Assembly: GCA_002401055.1 (NCBI GenBank)
Contig: NVRZ01000026.1
Span: 1-25,811, forward strand
From: Bacteroidota bacterium
GTDB taxonomy: Bacteria; Bacteroidota; Bacteroidia; NORP154
Direction: 5' to 3'
Length of the DNA: 25,811 nucleotides
Each line of letters starts with the position of its first letter. The first letter of the stretch is position 1. A program made the position numbers and the translations under genes. The notes beneath the pieces are model-generated. The model was not told the DNA's origin. It saw only the letters and a list, made by a program, of their open reading frames with translations, and made no database searches. Of the stretch, positions 780 through 10,110 are shown piece by piece.

Positions 780-1079
780 CCAAATACTCAAATACATCAA
801 GCTAACGTGAATACTGGTTGCATATCCTTGCAATACGTTGATTTACGGCCTTTGCTCAATTACTTACAAATAGTCTATCAATTTGAGAGTAATCCTATTC
901 CCCAGGTAGCATTTCCAGATTGAATAAATGAATAATTGAATAAATGAATGTAAAAGTGGCATATTTAGTACTTTAAGTTATAACAAAAGGTTATAACTTT
1001 TTGCTATGTCATTTCAATAAGGTTGATTATCTTAGGAAAGCGAATCGTACACTTTGTAACTAGTTACATATTATCAGCA
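780..1079. other. Gene-free stretch with a possible degenerate cassette site and a terminator
   Basis: No gene is seen over these 300 bases. At about 801-850 a GCTAAC arm, an inner hairpin (GTTGCA/TGCAAT) and a GTTGATT arm resemble the repeats found after each downstream gene, so this may be a degenerate first site. Bases 918-948 contain a direct repeat of the 14-mer TTGAATAAATGAAT. A strong hairpin with a T tract follows at 973-1002. The frame of the next gene extends upstream to a TTG at 1023, but its signal peptide begins at the ATG at 1080. Confidence 0.4.
973..1002 (+). terminator. Hairpin with T tract, probable intrinsic terminator
   Basis: Bases 975-984 (AAGTTATAAC) pair perfectly with 990-999 across a five-base AAAAG loop, followed by T residues to 1002. 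It lies about 190 bases after the HTH gene and before the first array gene, so it would separate their transcription. The stem is AT-rich, so its strength is uncertain. Confidence 0.5.
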
Positions 1080-1916
1080 ATGACACGTTGGATATTTTAC
1101 ATCTTGACGGCGACTTTTCTCCTATTTGGACACAAAAGTAATGGGCAAGCCGCAAAAGATTTCACGACCGACTGTAATACTTTTAAAACGGGAATTTTCA
1201 AATTAGTGGACTATGGTGTTTATACAATTGTTCGTTCGGACAATAAACAAAGAGAGAATGATGCACTGACTGGACTAATAAGTGAAATGGATATTAAGTG
1301 GTTGACTGACTGCACTTACATTTTATTTAACAGAAAAGTTATCAAAGGGGTTGATAAGGCACCACCCAAAATGAATCTTGACACTTTCTATAACGAGATT
1401 ATACACATTGATGGAAACAGATATACTGTTGCAACTACTTTCAAGAAACTTGATTTTACCGCCGAGGCGATACTCGTTAAAGTTGACAGCTCATCTTTAT
1501 TCAGAGATATCAGCGATTTGCCAGAGTTCAAAGAATTTAATGGTACTACAAGAGGCGGAACTCTAATAGACGTTAATTATTCTGTTGCATATAGACAAAA
1601 AACGGAGAAAAAGAACGAGTATCTATTAGCATTTGAGGAGGTATTTACTATCGATCACAGAGGAAGTTTTTTGTTATTAGATACTACAACATTTCAAATG
1701 AAAGCAAAACAATATATTGCCACAAGTGATTGCAGATATGACGGAAAACAAGACAAGGAAATAGTCGCGATTTACGCATCAAATAATGACAATGAAGAGG
1801 CTAAAATCATTCGCGCTTGGCGAGTTAACAGAAAGACACTGAAAATCGAGGGCGTAGAAATAGGCAAAGTCAAGTATAAGGTAGCAGACAATAATTTGTT
1901 TTATTGGAATGAATAA
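1080..1916 (+). CDS. Secreted protein of unknown function (cassette 1)
   Basis: This 278-residue protein has an N-terminal signal peptide (hydrophobic stretch about 4-17, likely cleavage after N-G-Q-A). The ATG at 1080 is preferred over an in-frame TTG at 1023 because the signal peptide begins there and the leader ends in cagca, as for other genes in the array. The mature part starts with a cysteine-containing segment (C-N-T-F-K-T-G-I-F) and continues with beta-rich sequence. A similar N-terminal arrangement is seen in small secreted Bacteroidota proteins, but no domain can be named. It is the first of ten co-directional genes separated by hairpin repeats, and its stop is followed 22 bases later by repeat A. 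Confidence 0.75.
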   Translation: MTRWIFYILTATFLLFGHKSNGQAAKDFTTDCNTFKTGIFKLVDYGVYTIVRSDNKQRENDALTGLISEMDIKWLTDCTYILFNRKVIKGVDKAPPKMNLDTFYNEIIHIDGNRYTVATTFKKLDFTAEAILVKVDSSSLFRDISDLPEFKEFNGTTRGGTLIDVNYSVAYRQKTEKKNEYLLAFEEVFTIDHRGSFLLLDTTTFQMKAKQYIATSDCRYDGKQDKEIVAIYASNNDNEEAKIIRAWRVNRKTLKIEGVEIGKVKYKVADNNLFYWNE

Positions 1917-1938
1917 TATCAAAAATAAGGAAGTACCG

Positions 1939-1979
1939 GTACTCACAAGACCTTTGGCACAACGCCGAGCCGCTAGTAC
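1939..1979 (+). repeat. Cassette-like hairpin site A
   Basis: The outer arms GTACT (1939-1943) and AGTAC (1975-1979) are perfect inverted repeats. Between them lies the shared core of the family: CTTTGGC, a short loop, GCCGAGCC and GCTAG. It sits between the stop at 1916 and the ATG at 1998. The core matches the other copies while the outer arms differ in sequence but still pair, so the structure appears to be conserved rather than the arm sequence. Confidence 0.7.
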
Positions 1980-1997
1980 ACATAAAAAAAACAAAAA

Positions 1998-2918
1998 ATG
2001 AATAAATTAATTACAGTAATTATCCTAAGTCTTTTCTTCTCAAATCTGTTCGGTCAAATAAATATGGACGATTCAACCGTCCAAGTGATTGGGTATTGGA
2101 GTATTGGAGATAAAGAAAGTTACAATGTTTCACTTCAAAAATTTAAATTAAGAGAAACAGATACTGTTTCAAATGAATTAATGACTTATGAGGTTGATGT
2201 AACTGTAATTGATTCAACTACTAATTCATATTCTATAGAATGGTTTTACCACAACTACAAAACCAATTCGACTAACGAACTTGTCAAAAAAATAACCTCT
2301 CTAGCAGAGGACTTAAAAGTTATTATAGAAACAGATGAATATGGTGCGATTAAAGGTGTTAAAAACTGGGAAGAAGTAAGAGATTATTTAAAAAAATCAA
2401 TCGGGCAAATGGAAAATGACATCAAGGACATTCCCAACATGGATAAACTATTAAAAAAAATAGAGGGGACGTTTACATCAAAAGCGGCAATAGAATCCGC
2501 TTCAATTCAGGATGCTCAACAGTTTTACACTTTTCACGGCGGAAGATATTTACTGAATGAAGTTCTTGAGTTCTCCATGCAAGTTCCTAATATCTATAGT
2601 CCCAGCACACCTTTCGATTCAAAAACGACATTATATCTAGATGAACTTAATCCAGAAGAAAATAATTGTATAATACGCTCTAGTCAAGAAGTCGACTCTG
2701 ACCAATTGACGAACACAACTTTTGAGTATCTGAAAAAAATGGCAAAGACACTGAAAACTAAAGCACCTAATAAAGAGGAAGTAGGAAAGTTGACCAATAT
2801 GACGACAATAGATTCAAGAATTCATGGAACAGGTTGGTTAATTTATAGTATCCTGTCAAAAACTATAAGTACAATGGGAGCAACAAATATTGAGGAAAGA
2901 ATAATTGAAATAAAGTAA
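1998..2918 (+). CDS. Secreted protein of unknown function (cassette 2)
   Basis: This 306-residue protein starts with a clear signal peptide (hydrophobic residues 4-18, cleavage after F-G-Q). The remainder is polar, with alternating beta segments in the first 100 residues, a lysine-rich helical stretch around 130-155 and no internal membrane span. No known domain was recognised. The start is supported by the signal peptide and an A-rich leader. The gene fills most of the interval between repeats A and B, leaving fewer than 20 bases on its left and 7 on its right, which is the tight packing expected of a one-gene cassette. Confidence 0.8.
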   Translation: MNKLITVIILSLFFSNLFGQINMDDSTVQVIGYWSIGDKESYNVSLQKFKLRETDTVSNELMTYEVDVTVIDSTTNSYSIEWFYHNYKTNSTNELVKKITSLAEDLKVIIETDEYGAIKGVKNWEEVRDYLKKSIGQMENDIKDIPNMDKLLKKIEGTFTSKAAIESASIQDAQQFYTFHGGRYLLNEVLEFSMQVPNIYSPSTPFDSKTTLYLDELNPEENNCIIRSSQEVDSDQLTNTTFEYLKKMAKTLKTKAPNKEEVGKLTNMTTIDSRIHGTGWLIYSILSKTISTMGATNIEERIIEIK

Positions 2919-2925
2919 AAACGTG

Positions 2926-2964
2926 TGCTAACAAAGGCCTTAGCGTAAAGCCGGAACGTTAGCA
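2926..2964 (+). repeat. Cassette-like hairpin site B (best-formed copy)
   Basis: The outer arms TGCTAAC (2926-2932) and GTTAGCA (2958-2964) are perfect seven-base inverted repeats. The inner stem pairs GGC with GCC (AAAGGC on the left, AAAGCC on the right) around a CTTAGCG-type loop. The spacer between stems is three bases (AAA) on the left and five (GGAAC) on the right, so the folded form is asymmetric. Total length is 39 bases, eight bases after the previous stop codon. Confidence 0.75.
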
Positions 2965-2978
2965 GCAATCTAAGACAA

Positions 2979-3395
2979 ATGACAAAGACAATTTCCCTTA
3001 TAGTACTTCTATTCAATATGTCATTTTTGTATAGTCAATCGGTAATAACAGAACCATTTGAAAAAGAAAAGTGGGATTCTAGTGGGACTTATAGATATGA
3101 TTTAGTCTTAAGGTCATACGATATCTTCAGTGCAGTAACATATCTCAAAAGTGAAAACGAAATTATTGAAACTTTAGGTCATCCCGTACAGCGATATTTA
3201 AGAAAAAACTCACCAGTTCATCTAAAACAGGGTTGGACAACAGCAGATGAAGTAATCGATTTGATATATTGCTTAGGTACACAATTAAATAAAACGTCGG
3301 AAAATGAAAATCGAAATAGATGTATTGGTTCATGGATTACATTGCACTTATATCAAGACTCAGTAGTTGATGTAACAATTGCTAATGTTGATTAA
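2979..3395 (+). CDS. Small secreted protein of unknown function (cassette 3)
   Basis: This 138-residue protein has a signal peptide (hydrophobic core 4-16, cleavage near L-Y-S-Q). The mature chain has two cysteines far apart (about residues 96 and 115) that could form a disulfide in the periplasm. It contains E-T-L-G-H-P-V-Q-R-Y, reminiscent of small periplasmic binding-type folds, but this is too weak to name a family. It starts 14 bases after repeat B and ends 4 bases before repeat C. Confidence 0.75.
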   Translation: MTKTISLIVLLFNMSFLYSQSVITEPFEKEKWDSSGTYRYDLVLRSYDIFSAVTYLKSENEIIETLGHPVQRYLRKNSPVHLKQGWTTADEVIDLIYCLGTQLNKTSENENRNRCIGSWITLHLYQDSVVDVTIANVD

Positions 3396-3399
3396 AAGC

Positions 3400-3478
3400 A
3401 GCTGCCTACAAAGGCTAAAAATCATGAGCGAAACCAACCAAACCGCTTCTACGCTTTATAGCCGAGCCGCTAGCGGCT
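3400..3478 (+). repeat. Cassette-like hairpin site C (long-loop form)
   Basis: The left arm (3400-3409) and right arm (3469-3478, GCTAGCGGCT) pair imperfectly. The inner stem pairs GGCTA (3413-3417) with TAGCC (3459-3463), and GAGCC follows as in sites A and G. The loop between the inner stems is about 40 bases, far longer than in sites B, D, F and H. Length variation confined to the terminal loop is what classical attC sites show in their variable terminal structure. Confidence 0.65.
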
Positions 3479-3486
3479 CTTACATT

Positions 3487-4002
3487 ATGAGAACAAAACA
3501 CTTAGTAATCGGGTTGTTTTTACTGTTTGGCTGCACCAATAGTGTTCAAGAAAAATCTGAAAATAATGATCTAGAGACTTCTGACAATGATACGATTATG
3601 CCTTCGGAGTCGGATATTGAAAATTCTATGGTGTATAATCGTGCAATAGCTATATGGGAATACGGTTGGAACTCTGAGTTAAGAGAACAAGAGGTAATTA
3701 AATTACGAGAGGTTAGCAATGATACCCTAACTCCCAAAATGCTAGAGCGTATTGTCAATTACACATGGCCAAGAGTTCAAATCAAATATTTAAAATCCTC
3801 TGGTGATACAGCTTTTATTCTGATTCCTGATAGTGAAGTTCTGACACAACAAATGGGAACTGCCGGAGCTGAAGAATTCATGCTTTCAACAACATTTACA
3901 TTTACTGAATTGCTCGGAATATCATATGTGTCTTATAAATTTGAAGAAGGTGATCACGCAGCTCCTGGCATTTATAATAGGAGTTCATGGAATAGAGATT
4001 AG
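3487..4002 (+). CDS. Lipoprotein of unknown function (cassette 4)
   Basis: This 171-residue protein begins at the ATG at 3487, giving M-R-T-K-H-L-V-I-G-L-F-L-L-F-G-C, a textbook lipoprotein signal with the lipidated cysteine at residue 16. The open frame extends upstream to 3379, but that extension would translate through the hairpin repeat and has no signal. After the cysteine comes an acidic, serine-rich linker and a compact domain containing two W-x-x-x motifs. No family was recognised. It is probably anchored in the outer or inner membrane and faces the periplasm. Confidence 0.75.
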   Translation: MRTKHLVIGLFLLFGCTNSVQEKSENNDLETSDNDTIMPSESDIENSMVYNRAIAIWEYGWNSELREQEVIKLREVSNDTLTPKMLERIVNYTWPRVQIKYLKSSGDTAFILIPDSEVLTQQMGTAGAEEFMLSTTFTFTELLGISYVSYKFEEGDHAAPGIYNRSSWNRD

Positions 4003-4007
4003 AGCAG

Positions 4008-4048
4008 CCGTTAACAAAGGCTTTGGCGCATAGACCGGCCGTTAGCAG
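4008..4048 (+). repeat. Cassette-like hairpin site D
   Basis: The left arm CCGTTAAC (4008-4015) pairs with GTTAGCAG (4041-4048) with one mismatch and one G-T wobble. The core reads AAAGGC, TTTGGCGC, ATAGACC, then GGCC before GTTAG. The previous stop is five bases upstream and the next ATG (4056) seven bases downstream. Confidence 0.75.
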
Positions 4049-4055
4049 TAATGAA

Positions 4056-4583
4056 ATGAAGCAATTTATTGCCATATTATTTTTTATAATACCCTCTACA
4101 ATTTGGGGGCAATTTCCAGAACTTAAGGAACAACAAGACAGAGCGATTACTTTTAATAAAGTCAAAACCTTAAAAGTATATATCTATGATTATCAGAATA
4201 AATCTGTAGACACTACATTTTCAACCTTTCAAAGCTATAACGAAAAAGGAAATTTGATAGAAAGAAGGGACTATTTTGAAAATGACTCCATTAGCTATGA
4301 AAGAGTTGTATATTCTTATGATACATTGGGTTATGACGTACTAAAAAAAACTTACATGGATACGGCATCTCCTTTTAACTGCTATTCATATCAAGGTCAT
4401 CCAAGAAAAAAGATTGAAGAAGGCAATGAGAAAGGACAATTAATTATAACAACAGAATATCATGATGAAGGGTTATTAAAAATGACATACTCATATTATG
4501 ACAATGATTTATTAAAACAAGTCGATATGTTGATTGATACAAAATTGACTTGGATTTATAAAATCCTATATGAATATTATTAA
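4056..4583 (+). CDS. Secreted YD-repeat-like protein (cassette 5)
   Basis: This 175-residue protein has a signal peptide (hydrophobic core 4-14, cleavage after I-W-G-Q). The ATG at 4056 is used; the frame is open upstream to 4023 but that part lies in repeat D. The mature chain has short tyrosine-rich strands of the YD/RHS type, such as Y-N-E-K-G-N-L-I-E-R and Y-Y-D-N-D-L-L-K-Q, which in Bacteroidota occur in small secreted or surface proteins of unknown role. It is much too short to be an RHS toxin. The repeat assignment is by pattern only. Confidence 0.7.
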   Translation: MKQFIAILFFIIPSTIWGQFPELKEQQDRAITFNKVKTLKVYIYDYQNKSVDTTFSTFQSYNEKGNLIERRDYFENDSISYERVVYSYDTLGYDVLKKTYMDTASPFNCYSYQGHPRKKIEEGNEKGQLIITTEYHDEGLLKMTYSYYDNDLLKQVDMLIDTKLTWIYKILYEYY

Positions 4584-4594
4584 ATGGAACGCGA

Positions 4595-4634
4595 CCAGTA
4601 ACAATGCCCTAAGCGCAATGACATAATTGACTGC
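4595..4634 (+). repeat. Cassette-like hairpin site E (degenerate)
   Basis: The left arm CCAGTAAC (4595-4602) is followed by AATGCCCTAAGCGCAATG and a right arm TTGACTGC (4627-4634). The spacing and the TAAC and GCGCAA elements match the family, but the inner right stem and GTTAG are eroded. It is followed by an interval with no gene, so this may be an old, inactive site. Confidence 0.5.
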
Positions 4635-4902
4635 AATGAAAGCTATAAGGCCAATCTGAGGCTCCAATACCACCTTACCTCGGTCTCAACTCTTCGATCA
4701 CAATAAGACAGTACCTTTCATTTGTGCAAACTCATTGCAAGTCGCAAAAGGAGTCTCTTAGCTTAAAGTAGGACCCAATAGCCCCGGTGCAAGGTTTCGA
4801 CTCAGAAAGGTCCAAAAGAGGGTGCCTAATCCGAGCAGCAACACTTACTCGGGGATATCCGTATATTTATTACCGTTATAACAAGTTGGAAGTTATTTAA
4901 AA
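4635..4902. other. Gene-free interval, possible decayed cassette
   Basis: No open frame of useful length is seen on either strand between degenerate site E and the GTG start at 4903. An ATG directly after site E opens a frame of only seven codons. The tight gene packing of the rest of the array is lost here. A stretch ending CCGTTATAAC near 4874-4883 faintly resembles a right arm. The simplest reading is a cassette whose gene has decayed. A non-coding cassette or an RNA is an alternative without positive support. Confidence 0.4.
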
Positions 4903-5688
4903 GTGAAAAAACTAATTCAAAGGTTACTGGATAATAAAGCAGGTGCATTTCTGGTATTAATTCTAGGAATTTTGATCTCTCCTTTCGTTGCTATTTTCAA
5001 ATGGAAGGAGATTACGGAAAGACTGAAAGAAGAGAACAAAGAGCCGGATTTCACCAAATACTTGGAAAGAAATGCGGATAATGAAACAAGCTTTATAAAT
5101 ATAACCGTTGAAGACACTTGGATTAGAGTTGAAGAGGGCGAGTTCTTGGGACAGGTTTCAAAATCCTCTCACGGCAAAAATTCAAAGGAAAGTGCATTAA
5201 ACTGGGCAAATCAGCTGGTAAACGATAAAATATCTGAAGGATTCCGGATAACAAAGTACATTGAAACTCAAGAAAACACGCTGACTAAATATGATGATTG
5301 GGATTGGCACGAAGTTCCAGAAGATTTGGATGAATTCCAGGGTTATGTGCCTGGAGGCCTGTATTTAGGTTGGGCAATTGACAGGGGGCTACTAAATCAT
5401 GAATTCATAAAGGAAAGTGGACTAAATAAGGTAATTGCGGACTTTAAAGATCGAAAGATTACAGGACCAAAAATTTATGAAAACATTGATGGTGTTTTAG
5501 ATAAAGAGTTATTGAATAAAGCAGGAAATAGATTCAGCCTTGAGTATTTTGACTCTTACTTGAGCGATCTTAAAATTGGGGTTGCTGGGGATTTGCCAAG
5601 CATCTATCATTTGGATGACACATGGGACAATTTTACTAAAGTCTCAGAAATGCTCGATAAAAAACTAAATAAAATGGACAACCGCTAA
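4903..5688 (+). CDS. Membrane-anchored protein with WGR-like and DUF7832-like regions (cassette 6)
   Basis: This 261-residue protein uses a GTG start preceded by GGAAG. A single membrane span at about 14-32 is followed by a charged linker. Residues about 66-118 resemble a WGR domain (G-Q-V-S-K-S, then S-K-E-S-A-L-N-W-A-N-Q-L and K-I-S-E-G-F). Residues about 127-261 resemble the family annotated as DUF7832, with W-D-W-H, Y-L-G-W-A-I-D-R-G-L, and L-P-S-I-Y-H-L-D-D-T-W-D-N-F near the end. These assignments are from memory of the families. With no signal cleavage site, the bulk is probably cytoplasmic. It differs from its exported neighbours. Its stop codon lies inside the left arm of repeat F. 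Confidence 0.75.
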   Translation: MKKLIQRLLDNKAGAFLVLILGILISPFVAIFKWKEITERLKEENKEPDFTKYLERNADNETSFINITVEDTWIRVEEGEFLGQVSKSSHGKNSKESALNWANQLVNDKISEGFRITKYIETQENTLTKYDDWDWHEVPEDLDEFQGYVPGGLYLGWAIDRGLLNHEFIKESGLNKVIADFKDRKITGPKIYENIDGVLDKELLNKAGNRFSLEYFDSYLSDLKIGVAGDLPSIYHLDDTWDNFTKVSEMLDKKLNKMDNR

Positions 5689-5722
5689 CCAAGGCTTTGG
5701 CGCAAAGCTGGGCCGTTGTGTG
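5682..5722 (+). repeat. Cassette-like hairpin site F, overlapping a stop codon
   Basis: The left part CCGCTAAC (5682-5689) contains the TAA stop of the preceding gene. The core follows closely: CAAGGC, TTTGGCGC, AAAGCTGGGCC, then GTTGTGTG (5715-5722). The inner stem is AAGGCTTT against AAAGCTG around GGCGC. The outer right arm diverges from GTTAG to GTTGT. Confidence 0.7.
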
Positions 5723-5733
5723 CAATTACAAGA

Positions 5734-6399
5734 ATGAAAAAAACACTAATATATATTCTTTCACTAATGGTTATTGGATGTTCTGTGGATAATGAGCAGA
5801 ACCCTGATTTAATAGAAGTCCTTGAAATAGTAGAGGATAAATCTACACCTCACCCTCTTTCCTGCGCGTTAAATATTGAAGCATGGAAATATAACCCTGT
5901 AATTAATGCTGTTGAAATGAACGTGACTCGTACAGTTGATTCAAGATTAATTAAGACTGACTCACTTTGTTATTGGATTGATAAAAACGATTGGTATTCT
6001 GAAATTCCAATGGAAGAGGGAGATATAGAGTATTATTTAGAAATGAGTTTGAAAGATATTGACACAAATAAATTTACAGTAAAAGTGAAAAATGATGAAT
6101 TCCTAATAGGAGTCTATCTTCTTCCTAATAAAAAAATGAATACTTCTAAAATCACTTGGGAGGGTCCTAAAATGAAAAAGATTTGGACAATTCAGTCGGA
6201 CTCGATAAAGATTGATTTTCCTACAGATTTAGACAGAATTAGAAGAAATTTTAAAACCTATAAAATGTTTGACGGTTCTGAGAAATGTAATATTGACTAT
6301 ATGGATAACTCTGTCGACTCGATCCCTATAGAAATCATGAGTAAGTCTATAATAAACCGATTTAAAAGAGCAATAAAAAAAGCACACAGCAATGGCTAA
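5734..6399 (+). CDS. Lipoprotein of unknown function (cassette 7)
   Basis: This 221-residue protein starts at ATG 5734 with M-K-K-T-L-I-Y-I-L-S-L-M-V-I-G-C, a lipoprotein signal with the lipidated cysteine at residue 16. An upstream in-frame TTG at 5716 lies in repeat F and is rejected. The mature part is mixed alpha/beta with repeated D-S-x-x-I-D phrases and two further cysteines (about residues 42 and 75). No domain was recognised. The last codons and the stop (S-N-G-stop) lie inside the left arm of repeat G, so coding sequence and repeat overlap. Confidence 0.75.
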   Translation: MKKTLIYILSLMVIGCSVDNEQNPDLIEVLEIVEDKSTPHPLSCALNIEAWKYNPVINAVEMNVTRTVDSRLIKTDSLCYWIDKNDWYSEIPMEEGDIEYYLEMSLKDIDTNKFTVKVKNDEFLIGVYLLPNKKMNTSKITWEGPKMKKIWTIQSDSIKIDFPTDLDRIRRNFKTYKMFDGSEKCNIDYMDNSVDSIPIEIMSKSIINRFKRAIKKAHSNG

Positions 6400-6452
6400 A
6401 AAATCATAGCTGCCCTGTGGGACAGCGACACTTTTAAGCCGAGCCGTCAGAT
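6384..6452 (+). repeat. Cassette-like hairpin site G (long-loop form)
   Basis: GGCTAAAAAA (6394-6403) pairs with TTTTAAGCC (6432-6440), and a second hairpin, GCTGCCC against GGGACAGC, sits in the loop. GAGCCGTCAG follows, as GAGCCGCTAG does in sites A and C. Its start GGCTAAAAA-TCAT is very like that of site C, so C and G form a long-loop subtype. The outer arms pair only weakly. Confidence 0.6.
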
Positions 6453-6464
6453 AAAATTAAATCA

Positions 6465-7253
6465 ATGAGGATAATATTATATATAGCATTTTTAGTTCTC
6501 GTCCTGTCATGTGGCGACTCAAAACAAGGATTTAACTCTTCAAGCGAAAGTGAAGAAGTCACTAAAGAATCTGACAAGAAACGAGAACTATCGGAAGACT
6601 TTAAAAAGAGCATGCATGGGATTTGGGCTTCCGAAGAATATCGGAAACTACTATTTGAAACTAATTCTGTGACCAAGGCAGAAAACTCAATAACCATTTA
6701 CACAGATATAGTATTTGACGGTGAGGAAATTCTTCATTGTAATAAACCAAGCTACATGGAAGAAGCTTATTTATTTGTTAAGCCGGATTCAACGGTTCTA
6801 GATCATGGCGGACAATTGATTTTCACAATTACCTCATTCAAGGATGAAACTATGGTCATAAAGGATACTTCAAACCTATATTACAACTATACTAGAGTTA
6901 TTGAAGATCCTGATTTGACCCGAATCTTTATGGAGGTAATTAAAGGAGCAAGGAGCATAAAAAATGATTGGATCTCCGGCAATTATTCGATTAAGCTTGA
7001 TGCCTTAGAATTTTACGCGGAACTGATGAAAAACGGAGATGTGCTTTCCACTTTGGAATTTATGTGGATATCTCCTGGTTCATATTTGGAAAGGGATATC
7101 ATTGAGTTTCGCTTTACCAATGACTCCGTTTTATTGTATCTGATAAATTCTCATACAGATACATTAATCCATTTAGAAGAAATTGAACGGATAACTGAAA
7201 TGGATGCTCCAATTGTACCAACGGGTAAATTCGGTACTATGAAAAAATTATAA
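6465..7253 (+). CDS. Lipoprotein of unknown function (cassette 8)
   Basis: This 262-residue protein begins M-R-I-I-L-Y-I-A-F-L-V-L-V-L-S-C-G-D, a lipoprotein signal with the lipidated cysteine at residue 16, followed by a serine- and glutamate-rich linker to about residue 45. The folded part contains H-G-I-W-A-S-E-E-Y near its start and later strands consistent with a lipocalin- or beta-sandwich-like fold of the kind seen in Bacteroidota lipoproteins. That is suggestive only. No family name can be given. The gene starts 12 bases after repeat G and ends just before repeat H. Confidence 0.75.
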   Translation: MRIILYIAFLVLVLSCGDSKQGFNSSSESEEVTKESDKKRELSEDFKKSMHGIWASEEYRKLLFETNSVTKAENSITIYTDIVFDGEEILHCNKPSYMEEAYLFVKPDSTVLDHGGQLIFTITSFKDETMVIKDTSNLYYNYTRVIEDPDLTRIFMEVIKGARSIKNDWISGNYSIKLDALEFYAELMKNGDVLSTLEFMWISPGSYLERDIIEFRFTNDSVLLYLINSHTDTLIHLEEIERITEMDAPIVPTGKFGTMKKL

Positions 7254-7257
7254 AACG

Positions 7258-7298
7258 GCTTTCAACAAAGGCATTGCGCTTAGCCGGGCCGTTAGTGG
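7258..7298 (+). repeat. Cassette-like hairpin site H
   Basis: A left arm ending TTTCAAC (to 7265) is followed by AAAGGC, ATTGCGCT, TAGCC, GGGCC and GTTAGTGG (7291-7298). The inner stem is AAAGGC-A against T-TAGCC-G. It lies between the stop at 7253 and the ATG at 7311. The outer arms match only in AAC/GTT and weak flanking pairs. Confidence 0.65.
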
Positions 7299-7310
7299 TA
7301 ATTTATAATT

Positions 7311-7739
7311 ATGATAAGAAAATACTATTTAAGTTCGGTGTTATACCCTTCCATAATTTCAATTATTGTTGGTGCAACCTACGCCGCGTTTGATGAAGGT
7401 AGCTATATCGAGGAGTATGATACGGCGAGCTCTGTATTTATAGAAGCTGCCTTCTATACCCTGTTGTTCTGTTCGGTTGGTTGGATAATATCGCTTGGTA
7501 TTTTCTTCAATAAGATTCAACAAATCAAAAACAATAAGCTGCTACGCTCTATATCTTGGTTTTTAATGCCATTTGCGATTTCTATTTGGTATGTATTTCA
7601 TGAAATAACTACGCGAATAAAATTTGGAGTGTTTAATGAATATGTTATTTCCATGTTAATTATAATTATTCCCTTTTTAGTTGCGTTGATTTTATCATAT
7701 TCTAAGTATTCTCGTGAGCAATTTGGCAAGAATGAGTAG
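7311..7739 (+). CDS. Polytopic membrane protein of unknown function (cassette 9)
   Basis: This 142-residue protein has about four hydrophobic segments, at roughly 10-27, 41-65, 78-97 and 110-131, with a charged C-terminal tail. There is no cleavable signal and no recognised family. It is one of two cassette genes in the array coding for an integral membrane protein rather than a secreted one. It ends with a TAG six bases before repeat I. Confidence 0.7.
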   Translation: MIRKYYLSSVLYPSIISIIVGATYAAFDEGSYIEEYDTASSVFIEAAFYTLLFCSVGWIISLGIFFNKIQQIKNNKLLRSISWFLMPFAISIWYVFHEITTRIKFGVFNEYVISMLIIIIPFLVALILSYSKYSREQFGKNE

Positions 7740-7744
7740 AAACT

Positions 7745-7787
7745 ACCACCAACAAACTCTTTGGCGCATACCCAGGCGGTTACCTGC
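7745..7787 (+). repeat. Cassette-like hairpin site I
   Basis: A left arm ending ACCAAC (to 7753) is followed by AAACTC, TTTGGCGC, ATACCCAGGC and GGTTACCTGC (to 7787). The TTTGGCGCA core is identical to sites D and F. The inner stem is weak and the outer pairing mostly limited to AAC/GTT, so this copy is recognised by sequence and position more than by perfect folding. Confidence 0.6.
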
Positions 7788-7797
7788 AACCCTTATT

Positions 7798-8838
7798 ATG
7801 ACTAGAACGACCACATTGCTACTACTGTGCATCTGGACAATGTGTTCATGTAACAGTGAATTAGAAAAAGAAACAATAGAGGGAATTGTTGTGGAAAGAC
7901 TAAGCGAGTGGGCGGAAAATCCATCATTCAGTAATGATATTCTCGACCCGAAGATCATTGAACAATTTCAAGACAGTGGACTTTTAGAGAATGGTTTAAA
8001 AGAGGGGCTGTGGATTGAGTACTCGCTTGACAACTCTTTGGTAAGAACTATAACTGTCGAAGTTGGAGACAAACAAACACCGCTGAAATTAGGGGCTACA
8101 CTCGAAAAACAAACTGGTACATATTTTAAAGGCAAAAGGCAAGGTGCTTGGATAATGTACAACTCCCGTGACAAGAAAGCCCCATTCTATTGGAACAGAG
8201 ATGGTGAAACAGACTACCGACAGGATGAGAAGCACGGAAAGGAAATAATATATCAGGGATTCGGAGAGGAATACCAACGCCCTCTCTTGATAAGACACTG
8301 GGAAAATGGAGTAGAAAACGGCATTGGCAAGATGTACTTTCCAAATCACCCATATGAGCTTCAGCAGGTTTATAATGCCGTAGATGGTCATTTATGGCTT
8401 CTTGAGAAATTTTATCCCAATGGACAGCTGGAAACAAAGTTCACGGATACAATATTGGAGGGCCGAGAGCTTAAATATATGCGAACTTATTACGAAAGTG
8501 GACAATTGAAGTTAATAGGATACTATACACTCAAAGAAGACCTTTTTGGAAGATGGACAAGTTTCTATAGAAACGCACAGATTGAAATAATCAAGAACTA
8601 TGAAAATGGCAAGCTCCATGGGAAATATGAATATTTTCACGACAATAGGCAAGTCTGGACGGAAAGAACTTACAAGGAAGGAAAGCTTTGGAATGTTCAT
8701 TCTAACTTTAATAGAAGAGGGCGAAAAAAGGATAGGGGAACAATAATCAACGGGACAGGAACGCTGAATCTTTATGACACTGAGGGCATGCTAACGGAGA
8801 GCGTGGAATATGTGAATGGCCTTGAGAAGAAAGATTAA
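7798..8838 (+). CDS. Lipoprotein with MORN_2 (YwqK-type) repeats (cassette 10)
   Basis: This 346-residue protein starts at ATG 7798; the frame is open upstream to 7714 but that part lies in repeat I. The N-terminus is a lipoprotein signal, with cysteines at residues 16 and 18 as candidate lipidation sites. The rest is a series of repeats of the form G-x-x-x-G-x-W-x-x-Y, seen at N-G-L-K-E-G-L-W-I-E-Y, G-K-R-Q-G-A-W-I-M-Y, N-G-V-E-N-G-I-G-K-M-Y, P-N-G-Q-L-E-T-K, S-G-Q-L-K-L-I-G-Y-Y and N-G-K-L-H-G-K-Y-E-Y-F. These match the MORN_2 family, often annotated as an antitoxin component though that role is not established for secreted forms. It is the last gene of the array. Confidence 0.85.
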   Translation: MTRTTTLLLLCIWTMCSCNSELEKETIEGIVVERLSEWAENPSFSNDILDPKIIEQFQDSGLLENGLKEGLWIEYSLDNSLVRTITVEVGDKQTPLKLGATLEKQTGTYFKGKRQGAWIMYNSRDKKAPFYWNRDGETDYRQDEKHGKEIIYQGFGEEYQRPLLIRHWENGVENGIGKMYFPNHPYELQQVYNAVDGHLWLLEKFYPNGQLETKFTDTILEGRELKYMRTYYESGQLKLIGYYTLKEDLFGRWTSFYRNAQIEIIKNYENGKLHGKYEYFHDNRQVWTERTYKEGKLWNVHSNFNRRGRKKDRGTIINGTGTLNLYDTEGMLTESVEYVNGLEKKD

Positions 8839-8845
8839 TAGGTAT

Positions 8846-8870
8846 GCAGCTAACCATGCCTTTGGCTTAA
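8846..8870 (+). repeat. Left half of a cassette-like site (J), right half not found
   Basis: GCAGCTAACC, ATGCC, TTTGGCTTAA match the left half of the repeat family directly after the last gene of the array. No GCC-GGGCC-GTTAG partner follows within the expected distance, so the array seems to be broken here, perhaps by a rearrangement that brought in the minus-strand genes. Confidence 0.5.
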
Positions 8871-10017: not shown

Positions 10018-10110
10018 CTACACTGTATTGGGCCTGCCTGCCGGTGGTCACTGAGCGCCCGCCTGAACCGGTACGGGCAGGCAGCCGAAGTGCAGGCAGG
10101 GTTAGTGGGG
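10018..10110 (-). repeat. GC-rich inverted-repeat element upstream of the membrane-protein gene
   Basis: On the minus strand it reads CACTAACC at one end (from 10107) and CAGTGTAG at the other (10018-10025). Inside, several TGCCTGC/GCAGGCA blocks can pair in alternative ways. It is far more GC-rich than its surroundings. The segment CTACACTGTATTGGG (10018-10032, plus strand) recurs with one mismatch at 9385-9399, the 3' end of the gene it precedes, so that gene is bracketed by related sequences. Confidence 0.6.

Follow-up and report, generated by a model that had tools for sequence, protein, structure and literature searches.

What kind of element is a run of ten one-gene units, each closed by a copy of the same degenerate attC-like site, on a contig that carries no integrase? 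We asked this of a window of 25,811 nucleotides (nt), contig C19 of a 2.49 Mb metagenome-assembled genome (MAG) of a Bacteroidota bacterium that is 60% complete and in 269 contigs. The array spans 807-8870 and holds ten plus-strand genes, nine whole sites (s1-s9) and a cut tenth copy (s10), much as a first-pass annotation made from the letters alone had described it: about ten such genes with one degenerate site each. Every gene lies within 25 bases of its own site or is overlapped by it at its end. With nine sites and no recombinase gene in the window (tblastn with 68 recombinases as queries, best E value 0.011, in agreement with the annotation), the array has what defines a cluster of attC sites lacking an integrase (CALIN), namely at least two attC sites with no integrase nearby. 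Our analysis indicates, with a probability that we put at a little under nine in ten, that the window holds an integrase-less cassette cluster of integron type, and that the enzyme serving such clusters in Bacteroidia is most probably a non-IntI tyrosine recombinase.

Cassette ends are complementary across each gene

In integrons, the R' half of each site derives from the next cassette, so a match is expected between R' of site n and R'' of site n+1. Scoring the 8 bases beyond GTT against the 8 bases before AAC, we found that R' of a window site matched R'' of the next with a mean of 4.78 of 8 (n=9), a value reached by 7 of 20000 permutations, whereas the two arms of the same site averaged 3.00 (n=9; 15926 of 20000 permutations as high) and other pairs 3.16 (n=72). 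The arm to the left of a gene is, in other words, complementary to the arm to the right of the same gene. When the whole inter-site sequence was searched, the R' of the previous site was the top partner for s2, s4, s7, s9 and s10 and shared the top rank for s3 (6 of 9); as single cases, s1 and s9 alone stand out from nearly all shuffled sequences (1 of 200 as good for each). Because R' of site n matches R'' of site n+1 and not its own arm, most units of the window are framed by their own inverted ends, which, judged from the sequence, is the trace of circles inserted at G^TT.

The same scoring was applied to nine further arrays (L019, L020, L063, L082, L085, L087, L089, L095 and L111), with 46 sites chosen by core and inner stem while the arms were left unused; a few plainly doubtful sites were retained, and L122, with one site, was dropped. 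Here the next-site mean was 5.66 (n=37; 0 of 5000 permutations as high), compared with 3.33 within a site (2462 of 5000) and 2.88 for other pairs (n=229). In the window as in these arrays, the two ends of a cassette make up one attC when the unit is circular. The integron-cassette logic proposed in the first-pass annotation is borne out by this complementarity across genes, and its estimate of a left end near position 801 agrees with the partner of s1 R'' at 807 (10 of 12 bases; 1 of 200 shuffles equal). What it had called a first site at 801 survives as the left junction of the first cassette and not as a whole hairpin.

Anatomy of the window sites

Read from left to right, a site consists of R'' (ending YAAC), three bases (mostly AAA), L'' (GGC..), a loop, L' (..GCC), five bases (GGGCC-like) and R' (GTTAG..). 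The core noted in the annotation, TAAC, AAA, GGC with loop and GCC, five bases and GTTAG, is kept in most sites, and its spacers of three bases on the left and five on the right hold wherever sites align in register; s5 is too degenerate to align, and s10 is the other degenerate member. From R'' to R', s1-s9 measure 39, 39, 73, 39, 37, 39, 69, 38 and 39 nt. Reported attC lengths are 55-150 bp (PMC2674596); s3 and s7 fall in this range and the seven others, at 37-39 nt, do not.

Pairing inside the nine sites, which the annotation had seen in the outer arms, occupied 66.9% of cells compared with 64.1% after shuffling (85 of 500 shuffles as high), which is not above chance. Together with the same-site score given above, this led us to drop within-site pairing as evidence; the arms pair across the gene instead. 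Because a structure-only scan of the window also stayed at the level of shuffles, the short sites are recognisable by sequence together with cassette-end complementarity.

Related sites and arrays in other contigs and genomes

Two covariance models were used: R1, built from the nine window sites, which it recovers by construction, and R2, built from 19 sites that all lie outside the window. At E≤0.033, R2 recovered six of the nine window sites, each of them on the plus strand and at a gene end. Over the rest of the genome, R1 returned mostly longer relatives on contigs C231, C253 and C20, and in 198 genomes of the class R2 found sites at E≤0.01 in 19, a lower bound, since the model is tuned to one family and the filters are strict. 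The annotation had looked to such a model for relatives, and they exist both in this genome and across the class. Sites in other arrays are mostly 55-140 nt long, with the window's 37-39 nt at the short end, and right spacers across sites are 5-6 bases; the earlier remark that sites near 40 bases are shorter than classical ones therefore describes seven of the nine window sites and not the family at large.

Outside the window, the inner stem L''/L' appears to covary (0.413 compared with 0.123 shuffled, 0 of 500 as high; 0.027-0.111 with a slid partner), in a set where many sites had been chosen by pairing. A first scan of the gaps between genes was weak. A strict scan covered 483 co-directional gaps from the window and 95 loci, 96 sources in all, and returned 16 forward matches, compared with 2 reversed and 1.2 shuffled; of the forward matches, one belongs to the window and another, in L145, is upstream of the recombinase there. 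In the array zones, a relaxed scan gave 32 against 5.7. These gap scans fixed the left spacer at three and hence are no test of that length.

Sites and genes are found in new combinations. By eye, Algibacter and Winogradskyella have almost the same sites behind genes that differ, the s7 core has relatives behind other genes in three genomes (G010, G001 and G005), and homologous cassette genes occur in separate arrays (L063 and L065, 56%; L059 and L087, 51%). A DNA search with the whole array against 12 relatives and its own genome matched elsewhere only the s7 site and short stretches. R1 also matched Polaribacter phage P12002L between two methyltransferase genes (E 0.003), where one R' fits the next R'' at 7 of 8 bases.

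A tyrosine recombinase precedes arrays in related genomes

Three genus or family mates of the source genome (G001, G002 and G003) and a further genome, G068, carry a tyrosine recombinase gene, with a divergent zinc-ribbon gene, that precedes genes with sites or the end of the contig; the copy in G068 is broken. The source genome has one such recombinase, on contig C264, with the same divergent zinc-ribbon neighbour as in the genus mates. Its sequence agrees with ten aligned relatives at every position that does not vary among them, including R248, H337, R340, H363 and Y372, which we take to be the catalytic residues.

A scan with ten enzymes of this kind yielded at least 80 named loci, which are a sample, and arrays stand behind the N-terminally extended enzyme in Algibacter onchidii, Winogradskyella ursingii, Flavobacteriaceae S0862 and Rufibacter. 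Over 80 loci and one phage, R2 gave, among the matches listed, 23 matches at E≤1, one in the phage and 22 in 11 loci, and all 22 lie downstream of the recombinase and on its strand; the weakest are possibly chance, such as that in L074 (E 0.51, partial). At E≤0.1 there are, among the matches listed, 15 locus matches in 9 loci, 7 of them outside the training set, to which L087 and L122 had lent sites. For those seven loci, a null fraction of 0.198 gives about 1e-5 by our own arithmetic. Contig ends within 2.5 kb of the enzyme, in the 28 loci counted as N-extended among the matches listed, fall downstream in 15 and upstream in 5 (discordant 11 versus 1, p 0.006), a bias such as repeats would cause and weak evidence for arrays behind the enzyme.

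The zinc-ribbon gene was recognised by motif near the recombinase, on the opposite strand, in 7 of the 80 named loci among the matches listed; two of three such proteins tested match Pfam families, DUF2116 and Ta0938, both below threshold. At one locus (L061, G005:C54), the recombinase has an array behind it while the zinc-ribbon gene is absent in front, where transposase-like open reading frames (ORFs) are seen by eye instead.

Candidate attI junctions

Following the logic of attI, the partner of the first attC's R'' is expected between the enzyme and the first cassette. Among 15 loci examined, 11 have a site, and in six of these the partner lies +33 to +128 past the recombinase stop (Table 1). 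The cassettes run downstream from the 3' end of the enzyme gene. An attI beside the recombinase, with insertion at G^TT, is thus seen in other genomes and not at C264, where a similar element (..CATATAAACAAGTT..) follows the recombinase and an ORF6N gene. The annotation's pointer to a tyrosine recombinase next to the same sites in this genome therefore led to a candidate, and to no visible cassette behind it. Its broader suggestion of a cassette system proper to Bacteroidota is supported by the related sites in other contigs and genomes, the arrays downstream of the recombinase and the attI junction.

The linked recombinase differs from IntI

In an alignment of the L085 enzyme with IntI4 (2a3v), the segment at the place of the IntI insert, flanked by aligned stretches, counts 26 residues in the former and 69 in IntI. 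Matches to TIGR02249 split in two stretches at that place, and none of the 80 relatives exceeds its cut-off. Canonical IntI passes the cut-off in 1 of 395 genomes of the class; in a sample of the phylum it is present in 105 of 395 genomes, one of them labelled as the same class. A tree of 68 rows places the 18 IntI sequences in one clade (support 100), grouped with archaeal and candidate phyla radiation enzymes, and sets 32 enzymes of the present kind (31 from Bacteroidota, one Spirochaetota-labelled) across a branch of 97 from IntI; it comes from a quick search with Shimodaira-Hasegawa-like approximate likelihood ratio supports only, and the group of 32 needs three changes and so is not shown to be a single clade.

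The structural model of the L085 enzyme (mean predicted local distance difference test score, pLDDT, 83.8; predicted template modelling score, pTM, 0.54) shows an N-terminal domain rich in beta strands and, where the insert would be, a linker of 16 residues; its nearest solved folds are XerA, IntI4 and XerH. Pfam HARP was matched in 3 of 22 members at E≤5, with one over the cut-off (L099, 28.7 versus 25), which is Spirochaetota-labelled and has no R2 site; Pfam gave no HARP match in the source genome's own enzyme. A HARP-like domain is accordingly no more than a hint at how the enzyme might read a folded site.

A strict integron has an IntI with its insert, and on this point the insert length, TIGR02249 and the tree all place the Bacteroidia enzyme elsewhere. 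Because this mark of the integrase was examined and not found, we describe the element as like an integron in its working and do not file it as an integron in the strict sense.

Interpretation and rival explanations

In the mechanism that we propose, a unit begins with the TT of one R' core, includes one gene and R''-L''-L', and stops at the G of the next R' core; when circularised, its two ends make one complete attC hairpin. Units were joined by site-specific recombination at G^TT, as the sequence signature shows. The enzyme would combine an Xer/IntI-like core without the IntI insert and an N-terminal domain of about 75-100 amino acids (aa), its gene standing directly before attI; linkage, strand and junction are seen in other genomes, and the recombinase would be the catalyst. 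It would recognise a folded single strand whose polarity comes, as the site anatomy suggests, from spacers of three versus 5-6 bases, and even the shortest sites would be, or have been, active. The window array may have become separated from the C264 recombinase or have been filled in trans.

The most serious rival is that this is an ordinary CALIN, with cassettes of canonical integrons, inserted by a true IntI that either worked in trans or has since disappeared, and that the neighbouring recombinase is irrelevant. In favour of it, IntI1 can recombine, in Escherichia coli, an attC carried by a phage that infects a Bacteroidia host (PMC9892861), and IntI is frequent in other classes of the phylum. 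Yet IntI is nearly absent from the class and from the 80 relatives, as counted above; R2 sites in recombinase loci lie, among the matches listed, only downstream and on the recombinase strand; and the first cassette starts just behind the recombinase in six loci. We therefore consider this rival improbable. Far less probable is the idea that the sites are intergenic palindromes of the repetitive extragenic palindromic (REP) type, or terminators, trailing the genes of a stable cluster. The sites do come directly after stop codons, and the structure-only scan of the window was at chance; but the arms of one REP-like copy should pair together, which in the window they do no more than permuted arms, a repeat or terminator has no reason to carry an arm that matches beyond the next gene rather than its own arm, and relatives of the s7 core stand behind different genes in other genomes, so that this view is already contradicted. 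Equally hard to credit is a reading of every gene as a small transposon of its own, bounded by terminal inverted repeats and mobilised by an unrelated transposase: both ends of each unit are indeed inverted repeats, but the units are head-to-tail on one strand with one shared junction and conserved AAC and GTT cores, the L''/L' stem appears to covary outside the window (in sites partly chosen by pairing), and an attI lies beside a recombinase.

Several observations weigh against the cassette cluster served by a non-IntI recombinase. Three of the nine window junctions mismatch (s4/s5, s5/s6 and s7/s8), and the previous R' is not the top partner for s5, s6 and s8; the window sites alone show no covariation above shuffles, and the R2 training sites were partly picked for pairing. 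A positive control with seven canonical IntI loci gave no next-site excess, leaving the complementarity test uncalibrated on textbook integrons: three loci with 9, 7 and 3 candidate sites scored 2.12, 2.42 and 2.25 against 2.70, 2.81 and 2.75 for other pairs, and four gave fewer than three candidate sites on a strand. This failure most likely arises from a detector tuned to Bacteroidia sites that picked false ones. The DNA search did not find the window array in the 12 relatives, and comparison of strains hence gave no case of a single unit gained or lost. At the enzyme, the partner of the first attC lies farther off in L122 (+300) and L100 (+276), each at 9 of 10 bases with 0 of 23 and 1 of 23 control arms as good; in three loci (L085, L087 and L081) the automated search put no junction close to the enzyme, although ten bases match by eye in L085; and four of the 15 loci (L111, L084, L070 and L074) gave no site over threshold. 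A similar contig-end bias is present in the 52 loci not counted as N-extended among the matches listed (24 versus 11), the wider recombinase family has a transposon-type member (annotated TnpF), and the C264 contig, in a MAG as incomplete and fragmented as this one, shows no cassette behind its attI-like spot. Recombination by the linked enzyme, finally, is inferred.

A more far-reaching proposal, which we offer tentatively and rate somewhat short of an even chance, is that Bacteroidia hold a second, independently arisen kind of integron, in which a non-IntI recombinase took over or invented attC capture without the insert. The HARP-like N-terminal domain would instead read the junction of single and double strand in the folded site, with the zinc-ribbon protein as partner or regulator.

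Relation to known systems and significance

The system as a whole resembles an integron in its one-gene cassettes running in one direction, in the order R''/L''/L'/R' with AAC and GTT cores, in an R' taken over from the next cassette and in an attI adjoining a tyrosine recombinase. It is unlike one in that the Bacteroidia recombinase, placed outside the IntI clade, carries an additional N-terminal domain and is without the IntI insert, in that the cassettes run downstream of the recombinase 3' end, and in the 37-39 nt of most window sites. With CALINs it shares several attC-like sites and cassettes without an integrase in the window, differing in that the sites belong to a Bacteroidia family and the likely enzyme is not IntI.

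The closest case with experimental support is the CALIN of phage P12002L, for which the accessible text reports that the bottom strand of attC2 was inserted into attI1 by IntI1, that the top strand gave no recombinants and that attC1 was inactive (PMC9892861). Because R1, built from the window alone, matches this phage, at a site that may or may not be attC2, sites of the window family can probably act as attC. The phage carries a site of the window family between methyltransferase genes, and no recombinase linked to it is seen in that account.

Smyshlyaev et al. 2021 regard the insertion as essential for integron function (PMC8138268), and an archaeal integron survey told IntI apart by the IntI-specific domain (PMC9668308). 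The former also describes an 'Integron-like' subgroup of tyrosine recombinases, a candidate placement to which the Bacteroidia enzymes may belong; its accessible text names no cassette arrays for members without the insertion. In NCBIfam, the L085 enzyme passes the cut-off of NF040815, 'site-specific tyrosine recombinase/integron integrase' (243.2 versus 220), and the source genome's enzyme falls just below it (213 versus 220); this is a broad XerA-like family name that is silent on cassettes. In the accessible literature, with most subscription papers, preprints and supplements outside it, we found no account that links cassette arrays of Bacteroidia to a recombinase other than IntI.

Searches that demand the IntI-specific domain would miss these elements, and a common bacterial class then looks nearly free of integrons. 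If the linked recombinase moves the cassettes, the IntI insert is unnecessary for cassette capture, and comparison could then test how integrons arose and how folded attC sites are read. The cassettes themselves form a pool of genes that is still unexplored: eight of the ten proteins here match no Pfam family over cut-off, the other two being DUF7832 and MORN_2. Among all ten, a search for defence families gave nothing convincing, with a single weak match (PDC-S02, E 0.0026).

Features of the window and related loci

Table 1. Positions of the array's features and of related loci. Coordinates without a prefix refer to the window; values with a plus sign are distances past the recombinase stop; G000 is the source genome.
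Feature	Position	Strand	Evidence or remark
Left junction of array, R' half of cassette 1	807..818	+	best complement of s1 R'' within 560-1930, 10/12; 1/200 shuffles equal
Cassette gene 1, 278 aa	1080..1916	+	no Pfam over cut-off; signal-peptide-like start by eye
attC-like site s1, 39 nt, cores CAC / GCT	1940..1978	+	R1 38.9 bits (R1 trained on s1); R' fits s2 R''
Cassette gene 2, 306 aa	1998..2918	+	no Pfam over cut-off
attC-like site s2, 39 nt	2926..2964	+	R2 27.8 bits; passes strict structure test
Cassette gene 3, 138 aa	2979..3395	+	no Pfam over cut-off
attC-like site s3, 73 nt, long loop	3403..3475	+	R2 17.1 bits
Cassette gene 4, 171 aa	3487..4002	+	no Pfam over cut-off; lipoprotein-like start by eye
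attC-like site s4, 39 nt	4009..4047	+	R2 22.1 bits; s4 R'' fits s3 R'
Cassette gene 5, 175 aa	4056..4583	+	no Pfam over cut-off
Degenerate attC-like site s5, 37 nt	4596..4632	+	R1 26.8 bits (R1 trained on s5); missed by R2
attI-like element ending AACAA^GTT, before gene 6	4859..4887	+	23/29 to stretch behind L069 (G002) recombinase; 20 shuffles max 22; suggestive
Cassette gene 6, 261 aa, DUF7832	4903..5688	+	PF25191 E 5e-21
attC-like site s6, 39 nt	5683..5721	+	R2 27.8 bits; R' fits s7 R''
Cassette gene 7, 221 aa	5734..6399	+	no Pfam over cut-off; lipoprotein-like start by eye
attC-like site s7, 69 nt	6384..6452	+	R2 20 bits; core relatives after other genes in G010, G001, G005
Cassette gene 8, 262 aa	6465..7253	+	no Pfam over cut-off; lipoprotein-like start by eye
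attC-like site s8, 38 nt	7260..7297	+	R2 28.3 bits; R' fits s9 R'' 10/12
Cassette gene 9, 142 aa	7311..7739	+	no Pfam over cut-off; membrane protein-like by eye
attC-like site s9, 39 nt	7747..7785	+	R1 38.2 bits (R1 trained on s9); missed by R2; R' fits s10 R''
Cassette gene 10, 346 aa, MORN-repeat-like	7798..8838	+	PF07661 30.7 bits vs cut-off 29.6
s10: R'' half and site start, right half lost; right end of array	8848..8870	+	sequence, cassette-end match
Second array, L020	G000:C231, whole 5.5 kb contig		five sites, 88-112 bases between cores; R' fits next R'' 7/8 at 4/4 junctions
Further array, L019	G000:C253:21000-27500	-	six sites
Single site, L021	C20:12988-13118		
First-attC partner, L059	+33		10/10; 0/23 control arms as good
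First-attC partner, L095	+63		10/10; 0/23 control arms as good
First-attC partner, L082	+64		10/10; 0/23 control arms as good
First-attC partner, L068	+103		10/10; 0/23 control arms as good
First-attC partner, L061	+38		9/10; 1/23 control arms as good
First-attC partner, L089	+128		9/10; 2/23 control arms as good
Zinc-ribbon gene sites	L005:16599-16991; L059, L060, L067, L068, L069; L082, L085, L091, L095, L096, L103, L143		

The attI-like element before gene 6 has no recombinase remnant beside it. The stretch GGATATCCGTATATTTATT occurs between genes at window 4853-4887, G005:C161:3732-3750 and G006:C34:13327-13345, exact in two of these places and with one mismatch in the third; ATAAC-like letters and GTT follow, and a like stretch lies behind the L069 recombinase, yet no recombinase stands beside these copies. 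Between s5 and this spot, at 4633-4850, lie some 220 bases in which neither an ORF of 60 aa nor a trace of a recombinase is present; with the cassette-end match failing on either side, this may be a deletion or a decayed cassette.

Directly left of the array, the gene at 483-779 has, by eye, a helix-turn-helix and an excisionase-type look. Outside the array, at 10020-10110 between minus-strand genes, a G+C-rich repeat (GCCTGCCTGCCGG ... GGCAGGCAG) was seen by eye.

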